NCBI GenBank assembly: GCA_945862385.1
Contig: CAMAXV010000002.1
Span: 186,001-250,000 of the forward strand
DNA: 64,000 nt
DNA from: Chitinophaga pinensis
GTDB lineage: Bacteria; Bacteroidota; Bacteroidia; Chitinophagales; Chitinophagaceae
Reading direction: 5' to 3'
Each line of letters begins with the position of its first letter. The stretch's first letter is position 1. Below are positions 59,796 through 62,500 of this stretch, piece after piece. A program made the translations under genes and the position numbers. The notes beneath the pieces are model-generated. The model made no database searches and was not told where the DNA came from. It saw nothing but the letters and a program-made list of their open reading frames with translations.

Positions 59796-60770
59796 TTGCC
59801 ATATATGGAGCTGCTGAAAGCGCAAAATATCAGTAAAATAGCAGGAGAAAGGGTGTTGCTGGCAGACACTTCACTGGAAATTCTGTCTGGATCGAGGTTG
59901 GCCATCATGGGTGAAACGGGTTCCGGGAAAAGTACGCTGCTAAAAATCATGGCTGGACTTATCGCTCCTTCATCAGGAGAAGTTCGGCTAAATGGAAAGA
60001 AACTGGAAAATCCGACTGAACAGCTGATCCCCGGCCATCCGAAGATAGCCTACCTCTCCCAACATTTTGAACTACGCAACAACTACCGGGTCATTGAACT
60101 ACTTGAAATGACTGCCAAACTGGAGGCGGATGCCTGTAGCAACATCATTGATTTGTGCAGAATCAGCCACCTGCTCCAACGCAAAACCCATGAAATTTCA
60201 GGCGGCGAACGCCAGCGGATTGCTTTAGCACGGCTACTCCTCGGGAATCCAGACCTGCTCCTGCTGGATGAACCATTTAGCAACCTGGATATGGTTAACA
60301 AGTTAATCGTACGGGAAGTACTACAGGAAATTAGTACAACACTGCAACTTACCTGTGTTATGGTTTCACATCACCCTGAAGATGTATTGCCATGGGCTGA
60401 AACGGTGATAATCATGCAAAAAGGAAGAATTATTCAAAAAGATACCCCGCAAATGGTTTATAACCAGCCGGTTAACAGCTATACTGCTTCACTGACCGGA
60501 CTCAATAACCCGTTACTTCCGGGGGAAGAAGCACTGGCTCAGGCACTGCGGTTAGACAAAAGCCTACCCAACTGGATAAGGCCGGAGAACCTCAAAATCA
60601 TTCAAAAAGAAGATACCGGAGCAAATGGATTGATTCAGTCAGTTACATTTTGTGGACATTTCTGGCTAAACAGGGTGAATATGGGCTATCGAGACCTGAT
60701 TGTTATCTCAGAACAATCCGATTTTCAGGTGGGCCAAGAAGTTTCAGTTCTCCACAGCCGTAAAAAATAG
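59796..60770 (+). CDS. stand-alone ABC transporter ATP-binding protein
   Basis: GETGSGKSTLL, ISGGERQRIALARLLLGNPDLLLLDEPFSNLD, MVSHHPEDVLPWAE; no permease gene adjacent. Confidence 0.92.
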   Translation: MPYMELLKAQNISKIAGERVLLADTSLEILSGSRLAIMGETGSGKSTLLKIMAGLIAPSSGEVRLNGKKLENPTEQLIPGHPKIAYLSQHFELRNNYRVIELLEMTAKLEADACSNIIDLCRISHLLQRKTHEISGGERQRIALARLLLGNPDLLLLDEPFSNLDMVNKLIVREVLQEISTTLQLTCVMVSHHPEDVLPWAETVIIMQKGRIIQKDTPQMVYNQPVNSYTASLTGLNNPLLPGEEALAQALRLDKSLPNWIRPENLKIIQKEDTGANGLIQSVTFCGHFWLNRVNMGYRDLIVISEQSDFQVGQEVSVLHSRKK

Positions 60771-60964
60771 TAGTTGTGAAAAAAGAGAAATGAAAACCCT
60801 GTAAAAAAATCAAAAAATCAAAATAATTAGATAACTTCGCCTATATCTTTGTGGTGAGTTTGAATATCCCTATAATTAACCTGTCCAATTCAGCCTAAAA
60901 ATAGTCCAATTCCTTTTCTAAAATACCAGCCAAACCACACTCAAGTTTACTAAAAAATTGCATC

Positions 60965-61987
60965 ATGAAAATAACAGGATTCACCAGCTTACTTGAAACT
61001 TCCTTCGGAAAAAATCCAGTTTCCGCCAGTTCATTGTTACACGGCATCAGAATCAAGCATGAAGATAACTGGTACCTCGTTGGCGACGCGTGTAAAAACC
61101 TGGGAAGAAACCCTCACAGAATTGTTAATGCAAGCCCTGAAGAGCTGGATTACAAAATCCTCTTCAATGCTGCACTAGTGCTTTCTGCCAATAACTACTC
61201 TGAAAAAGTGAACCTTACACTTGGCTTCCCCTTTTCTACTTACAACATGTTCAGGCCTCTTGCCGAGAAATACCTGATGAACAAGAATTTTGTGGTGGAA
61301 TATGATACATCCGTATATAAACGCGATGGTATTGTTGAAAGAAAGGTTGTGGAAGTATCTCAGTTTGATATCATTCCTGAACTTGCGGCCTGTGTAATCG
61401 GGCTTAAAAAAGAATACAATGCTACTGAAGAGAATTTTCTCATGATTAGTATTGGTTTTGGCACTATTGAAATGGGTGTTGTTACTGCAGAGGGACTGAA
61501 CAGGAGAACAGTAATATCTGTACCTGGTATCATACGTTGCATCAAGCACCTCAGAGATGAATTGGAGCGTGATAACTTCATCGGTTTCATGACCGACCAT
61601 CAGCTTGACGAAGCCTTCAAAAAAGGCAGTGTTGTCCTGAACAGGCAAAATATTAACCTGAATACACTGAGAAGCAATATTCTGAAGAGTTTTTACAAGG
61701 AATACATTTCAGATACTATCCGTTCCATGATTTCTGACCGTGATTTTGAGACCCTGCAAAAGATTTATGTCTGCGGTGGCGGCGTTCACTACCAGGAAAT
61801 CAGGGACTGCTTCAGGAATGAATTTGAAAAAATCATGCCTGTGGAAATCGTTGCAGAACCCGACACATTGGCTGCAATCGGATACTACCACAACTCCCAA
61901 AAAATGCCTTCTGTAGGTGCAACTAATATTGTGGGCATCGACCTGGGTAATTCATCAACCTATGTTTGTGCTAAGGAGACTGAATAA
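60965..61987 (+). CDS. ParM/StbA-like actin-family ATPase with apparently circularly permuted motif order
   Basis: FLMISIGFGTIEMGVV (phosphate-2-like), KIYVCGGGVHYQEI (adenosine), EPDTLAAIGYY (connect-2-like), then NIVGIDLGNSSTYVCAKETE (phosphate-1) at the C-terminus. Confidence 0.8.
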   Translation: MKITGFTSLLETSFGKNPVSASSLLHGIRIKHEDNWYLVGDACKNLGRNPHRIVNASPEELDYKILFNAALVLSANNYSEKVNLTLGFPFSTYNMFRPLAEKYLMNKNFVVEYDTSVYKRDGIVERKVVEVSQFDIIPELAACVIGLKKEYNATEENFLMISIGFGTIEMGVVTAEGLNRRTVISVPGIIRCIKHLRDELERDNFIGFMTDHQLDEAFKKGSVVLNRQNINLNTLRSNILKSFYKEYISDTIRSMISDRDFETLQKIYVCGGGVHYQEIRDCFRNEFEKIMPVEIVAEPDTLAAIGYYHNSQKMPSVGATNIVGIDLGNSSTYVCAKETE

Positions 61988-62011: not shown

Positions 62012-62500
62012 ATGAAATTTTTTGAAAAAAATAATATTGTAGAGAGTTTATTCATCCCCAAGGATGTAACAGTTACTGGAACCATTGAAGGAAAAATATC
62101 CGGAAGGATTGAAGGATTCATCAAAGGTGATGTAAAAATCAATGGAAAGGTTGTTGTGAGCGAAACCGGTTCAATTGGCGGATCATTGAAATGTTATGAC
62201 CTTGTTTTACAAGGTATAATCAAAGGCGATGTGGTGGCTTACAACTCAGTAACAGTAATGCCTGGCGGTGTCATTGAAGGAAATGTTTCTTCCAATTCCA
62301 TCAATGTAGACTCCAAAGCCAATGTAAAAGGCAATATCAAAAAGACATCTGGAAAGGAAGATAATCACAGGGCCTCCTTTACACCCAGTAACCTGTTACC
62401 AAAACAGGATCTGATGCCATCATCCAAAAAAGACTTGGTTCCAAGGTCATTTGGTGAAGTAAAAAACGAAGAGGGTCAGGATACCAGTAACTTCTGGTAG
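62012..62500 (+). CDS. bactofilin family cytoskeletal protein
   Basis: VTGTIEGKISGRIEGFIKGDVKINGKVVVSETGSIGGSLKCYDLVLQGIIKGDV short beta-helical repeats. Confidence 0.93.
   Translation: MKFFEKNNIVESLFIPKDVTVTGTIEGKISGRIEGFIKGDVKINGKVVVSETGSIGGSLKCYDLVLQGIIKGDVVAYNSVTVMPGGVIEGNVSSNSINVDSKANVKGNIKKTSGKEDNHRASFTPSNLLPKQDLMPSSKKDLVPRSFGEVKNEEGQDTSNFW

Follow-up and report, generated by a model that had tools for sequence, protein, structure and literature searches.

The window, by which we mean the whole 64,000-nucleotide stretch of DNA analysed here, carries on its forward strand a gene (60965-61987) for an actin-like protein of the ParM/ALP type which is very likely a natural circular permutation. 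This statement refers to the level of sequence; the fold is not shown. The chain of 340 amino acids begins at strand beta-3, and the phosphate-1 hairpin VGIDLGNSSTYV forms its final ~20 residues, with the C-terminal residues NIVGIDLGNSSTYVCAKETE representing the phosphate-1 motif. To our knowledge, no actin-family protein has phosphate-1 anywhere but at the N-terminus. The coding sequence was assigned by translation, profile, rotation and doubled-profile evidence. An actin-like reading frame with a terminal phosphate-1 motif at this position had been described in a first-pass annotation. This observation was confirmed and the frame translates as described; the interpretation as a circular permutation was supported by every sequence-level test that the annotation had proposed and by several more.

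The elements of the fold could be located along the chain using alignment A3, which consists of 34 sequences with 29-65% identity to the window protein. The start of strand beta-3 (FTS at 60980-60988, FPS in most relatives) was placed with A3 and with the ALP_N and ParM profiles, and the new N-terminus lies five residues upstream of it. The invariant residue E139 (61379-61381) was identified by comparison with normal ParMs and stands where the fold has its catalytic Gln or Glu. The phosphate-2 strand-turn FLMISIGFGTIE comprises residues 158-169 (61436-61471) and includes the invariant E169. It had been equated with that of ParM, which held as far as homology is concerned, but S162 replaces the Asp of ParM. 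The adenosine motif GGG (residues 271-273, 61775-61783) is invariant in the alignment. A segment of 18 residues (61880-61933) leads from the old C-terminal helix to strand beta-1, and the relocated phosphate-1 motif GIDLGNSST follows directly (residues 324-332, 61934-61960; alignment, rotation scan and doubled profile). All three nucleotide-site motifs were detected: phosphate-1 and adenosine are complete and invariant, and phosphate-2 is present without its Asp.

A search with the native protein against Pfam yielded the actin-like protein N-terminal domain ALP_N with 32.0 bits (cut-off 26.3), and the match spans only positions 40-145 of the 148 positions of the profile. In PHROGs, phrog_691 ("partition protein") was matched with an E value of 1.8e-24 over profile positions 44-320. 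Since both matches lack the start of the profile, the body of the protein corresponds to a ParM/ALP-type actin-like protein without the phosphate-1 hairpin. The claim that the upstream DNA encodes no phosphate-1 motif back to the nearest TAG also held. The in-frame stop is located at 60902-60904, and the motif is absent from all six frames of 60701-61000. The upstream neighbour (59796-60770) encodes an ABC transporter ATPase, which was not seen beside the permuted actin in any of the other listed neighbourhoods.

For computational de-permutation the last 24 residues were moved to the front. This increased the ALP_N score of the window protein from 32.0 to 38.9 bits and the coverage from 40-145 to 1-145; the phrog_691 score rose from 87.5 to 98.8 bits and the coverage from 44-320 to 3-320. 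Two distant relatives behaved likewise, with ALP_N scores increasing from 52.6 to 59.6 and from 34.5 to 47.2. The check on profile coverage after de-permutation therefore favours permutation. A scan of rotations against a normal-order reference profile, built from 14 ParMs of plasmids and phages, revealed that the best cut lies just before the C-terminal phosphate-1 in 31/34 members of A3. In the three other members phosphate-1 is followed by a long tail, which cannot be removed by any rotation. In the leave-one-out control, all 14 normal ParMs scored best at their own start or no more than 18 residues from it.

We also moved only the tail and compared the real tail with 200 shuffles of itself. 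The window protein reached 73.8 bits with the real tail, above all 200 shuffles (maximum 65.3). Across the family the real tail exceeded all shuffles in 26/34 members, and in the other eight one to seven of the 200 shuffled tails scored as well. The permutation signal is modest in each single member, and its strength lies in the consistency across members. When the normal-order ParM profile was doubled, every native family sequence (34/34) aligned unbroken across the junction, whereas 13 of the 14 normal ParMs stayed within one copy and the remaining one overran by 14 positions. An hhalign comparison of the native family with normal ParMs gave a probability of 99.4% and paired query columns 5-318 with ParM columns 24-345. 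Exactly the N-terminal hairpin of ParM and the C-terminus of the query were left unmatched, as permutation predicts. An AlphaFold2 model from two sequences only was poor (mean pLDDT 45.4), and an actin fold in three dimensions is not shown.

Relatives of the protein were found in 9/41 genomes of the genus, in 6 of 289 listed genomes of the class sample (two merely weak, one of these being MreB) and in 24/396 genomes sampled from the phylum (including one weak match, to MreB). In the class of genome G472, homologs occur in 31/250 genomes; genomes G000 and G542 belong to other classes. Altogether 49 distinct relatives from three classes of the phylum were obtained, and the permuted order is common to all of them. 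Each of the 49 open frames contains a single phosphate-1 motif, located C-terminal to the adenosine motif. No member has a phosphate-1 hairpin at the N-terminus, which had been named as the outcome that would refute the permutation; the check on motif order in orthologs accordingly came out as conserved throughout. All members of A3 begin at strand beta-3 (FPSVxE) and finish with G-D-GN--T, with G324, D326, G328, N329 and T332 invariant in the 34 sequences. The link that leads from the former C-terminal helix to beta-1 is 17 or 18 residues long in 46/49 members and varies in sequence, and phosphate-1 is followed by 6-23 residues in 45/49 and by 49, 99, 100 and 101 residues in the remaining four. 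These data show at the sequence level that the permuted motif order is conserved and old. In three genomes the gene lies on contigs of 3.55-4.29 Mb, and we consider it likely that the family is old and chromosomal in the phylum rather than a plasmid segregation protein. Genomes G472, G518 and G829 contain two permuted copies each, and in G472 and G518 each copy is followed by its own bactofilin gene.

The comparison of active-site residues showed consistent exchanges. The position of E139 is Glu in 34/34 permuted members and Gln in 13/14 normal ParMs, and the Asp of phosphate-2, present in 14/14 normal ParMs, is replaced by Ser in 31/34, by Gly in two and by Asn in one. The phosphate-1 Lys of ParM is lost as well, and D326 and the adenosine GGG are invariant in A3. 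With respect to the metal-coordinating Asp of phosphate-2, the protein does not meet the criterion for the ParM/ALP branch. In the window protein, S162 is encoded at 61448-61450, and E169 lies farther along the same loop. Judged from sequence alone, nucleotide binding is likely. Owing to the loss of the Asp, ATP hydrolysis may be slow or catalysed in a different manner, a possibility which is inferred and not backed by ATPase data.

The next gene downstream, separated by a gap of 24 bases, encodes a bactofilin of 162 amino acids (62012-62500, forward strand; Pfam Bactofilin, E 8.2e-19). It is the sole bactofilin match in this genome and ends with ...SNFW, the C-terminal residue being encoded at 62498-62500. 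Using a profile of Pfam-confirmed bactofilins, we detected a bactofilin downstream and on the same strand in 37/49 distinct loci, usually as the next gene and sometimes after about 1.0-1.2 kb. Pfam was run on 20 of these 37 proteins, and all 20 scored above its cut-off. Of the 32 bactofilins that are encoded by the next gene and whose C-terminus is visible, 31 have Trp (27) or Phe (4) as the last residue; bactofilins located past an intervening TPR gene have other C-terminal ends. The single exception, in G005 (L082:17-2029), has a bactofilin frame extending to 670 aa, which could be a fusion or an assembly error. The 12/49 loci without an adjacent bactofilin are confined to three clades. One lineage of this kind, family f67 (L015, L016, L017), has a tail of ~100 residues after phosphate-1. 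This tail of the permuted actin itself ends in Trp (LGKFLKTGMW or similar, ...GMW or ...GTW) and resembles the ends of bactofilins. A ParR gene directly downstream is a criterion for a plasmid partition ParM (type II par). A small ParR-like gene beside the permuted actin was not recognised in the 20 neighbourhoods listed, whereas most of the normal ParMs fetched are followed by a gene of ~90-125 aa.

As the best explanation of the whole, which we regard as likely in the absence of expression, ATPase and polymerisation data, we propose a permuted actin that forms a scaffold together with bactofilin. The chain would be broken in the turn that connects strand beta-2 to beta-3, and the old N- and C-termini would be bridged by the near-constant link of 17-18 residues. 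The C-terminal beta-1/beta-2 hairpin is inferred to refold in cis as phosphate-1; packing in cis is the probable arrangement, again without a demonstrated fold. The protein is predicted to bind ATP and to polymerise into nucleotide-dependent filaments, an inference for which no polymerisation data exist, and the loss of the Asp would favour stable over dynamically unstable filaments. These filaments may act with the adjacent bactofilin as a scaffold that organises the envelope or the cell shape. From gene order and the protein families involved, we infer that the permuted actin probably works with bactofilin; for a role in envelope or shape, inferred on the same basis, the chances seem a little short of even. 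The C-terminal peptide of ParR docks on ParM. By analogy, and as a hypothesis only, the aromatic C-terminus of bactofilin would dock on the actin-like filament. A bolder reading, a phylum-wide family of permuted actins without the phosphate-2 Asp that forms a two-component cytoskeleton with bactofilin by docking of aromatic ends, is one we would lean slightly against.

Other explanations of the gene have to be weighed against this proposal. One objection is that the protein has normal order and only seems permuted because its start was called wrongly, its N-terminus is frameshifted or an unrelated extension at the C-terminus happens to look like phosphate-1. Several assemblies of the genus are indeed fragmented drafts and the motif is short. 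Against this reading, no frame upstream of the window gene contains phosphate-1, all 49 open frames have a single such motif on the C-terminal side, G-D-GN--T is invariant in A3, and the rotation and doubled-profile tests contradict it. The order conserved in orthologs refutes it, and we regard it as all but excluded. A second reading accepts the permutation and assumes completion in trans by strand donation. Each subunit would insert its C-terminal beta-hairpin into the nucleotide site of the following one, so that the active site would be completed by filament assembly itself. Cis and trans cannot be separated by sequence, and the hairpin does lie at the chain end, after the link of 17-18 residues. 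Nevertheless, the near-constant length (46/49) and variable sequence of the link are expected of a fixed bridge within a subunit, and in three members a donated hairpin would have to carry along the 99-101 residues that follow phosphate-1. What is known of actin folds, whose two termini are close neighbours in subdomain IA, also speaks against donation, and we consider completion in trans very unlikely.

The remaining alternatives concern function. Despite its permutation, the protein could have kept the role of ParM in DNA segregation, acting on the chromosome or an integrated element, with bactofilin as an anchor and not as a shape factor. The nearest known relatives are ParMs of plasmids and phages, two or more genomes of the genus have the gene beside dnaA, and bactofilins can anchor ParAB in myxobacteria. 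However, no ParR-like neighbour was recognised in 20 neighbourhoods, unlike most normal ParMs, including that of L129, and the gene resides on chromosome-size contigs; we judge this reading unlikely. Similarly improbable, in our opinion, is a nucleotide-binding regulator that resembles Hsp70 or FtsA, does not polymerise and only recruits bactofilin. The exchange of the phosphate-2 Asp for Ser in 31/34 members and the missing phosphate-1 Lys would agree with such a role, but the nearest solved relatives are filament-forming ParMs, with the reservation that polymerisation cannot be judged from sequence. The dnaA arrangement was observed at L081 (G044) and L082 (G005), where the actin-bactofilin pair adjoins this gene, unlike in the window. 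Locus L129 (G520) of the same phylum encodes a ParM-like protein of normal order (MGIFVCDLGFSSAK...), and a frame of 115 aa lies directly downstream, as in plasmid ParMs.

Among known systems, the permuted actin is closest to ParM/StbA and the actin-like proteins of plasmids and phages (ALP_N PF17989, phrog_691), with which it shares the order of beta-3, catalytic, phosphate-2 and adenosine elements and C-terminal helix. The ParM of pCBH (6ixw) was matched by profile with an E value of 5.4e-08, and Dh-cParM1 (8x1i) is likewise among the closest known systems; a PDB search with the window protein as single sequence gave nothing real (best E 0.91). In contrast to ParM, the permuted family has phosphate-1 at the C-terminus, lacks the phosphate-2 Asp, contains Glu for the catalytic Gln, is chromosomal, and has a bactofilin neighbour and no ParR partner gene that we could find. 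A plasmid or phage origin was rejected, with only distant normal-order ParMs and no close plasmid or phage relative. MreB is also chromosomal, its adenosine and C-terminal segments match the permuted protein weakly, and the permuted phosphate-1 (DxGNAxTxV) and phosphate-2 (G-GT-E) resemble its DLGTANT and GGGTTE. However, it is the ALP_N domain that fits this protein, whereas MreB does so only locally and below the cut-off. An identity as MreB was rejected: MreB_Mbl reached 16.8 bits (cut-off 27) over residues 266-312 only. The MreB-like_C match was also below the cut-off, and a separate normal-order MreB gene is present in the same genome (G000:C6, 415 bits). FtsA has a rearranged actin fold with subdomain 1C instead of 1B; this is a domain relocation in which the N-terminal phosphate-1 is kept, and not a circular permutation. 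The YlqF/YRG family and cpRAS are GTPases with a conserved, cyclically changed motif order (PMC2430557). They are comparable as a nucleotide-binding fold with such a change, but belong to the unrelated P-loop fold.

In the open-licence literature searched, we found no natural permutation of ParM or of another actin-family filament protein; the sole paper on ASKHA proteins and permutation dealt with kinase fold groups in general and not with a permuted actin. Databases, as we take it, probably list these proteins under generic ParM/StbA names, where they go unnoticed. A natural and conserved permutation would show that new chain ends within subdomain IA are compatible with the actin fold. It would also provide new free termini near the nucleotide site and test which parts of filament assembly depend on chain order. 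The steady association with bactofilin, which polymerises without a nucleotide, would connect two cytoskeletons, the actin-like one and that of bactofilin, and offers a directly testable partner. None of the papers found in the search describes a bactofilin that is consistently accompanied by an actin-like protein. In Hyphomonas, a bactofilin and an M23 endopeptidase control cell form (PMC10945521). The permuted actin loci share with this module the adjacent bactofilin in most lineages and an upstream M23 peptidase in one. In this lineage (L075, L077, L085) the gene for the M23 peptidase is followed, in this order, by those for the permuted actin, a TPR protein, bactofilin and a small membrane-like protein.
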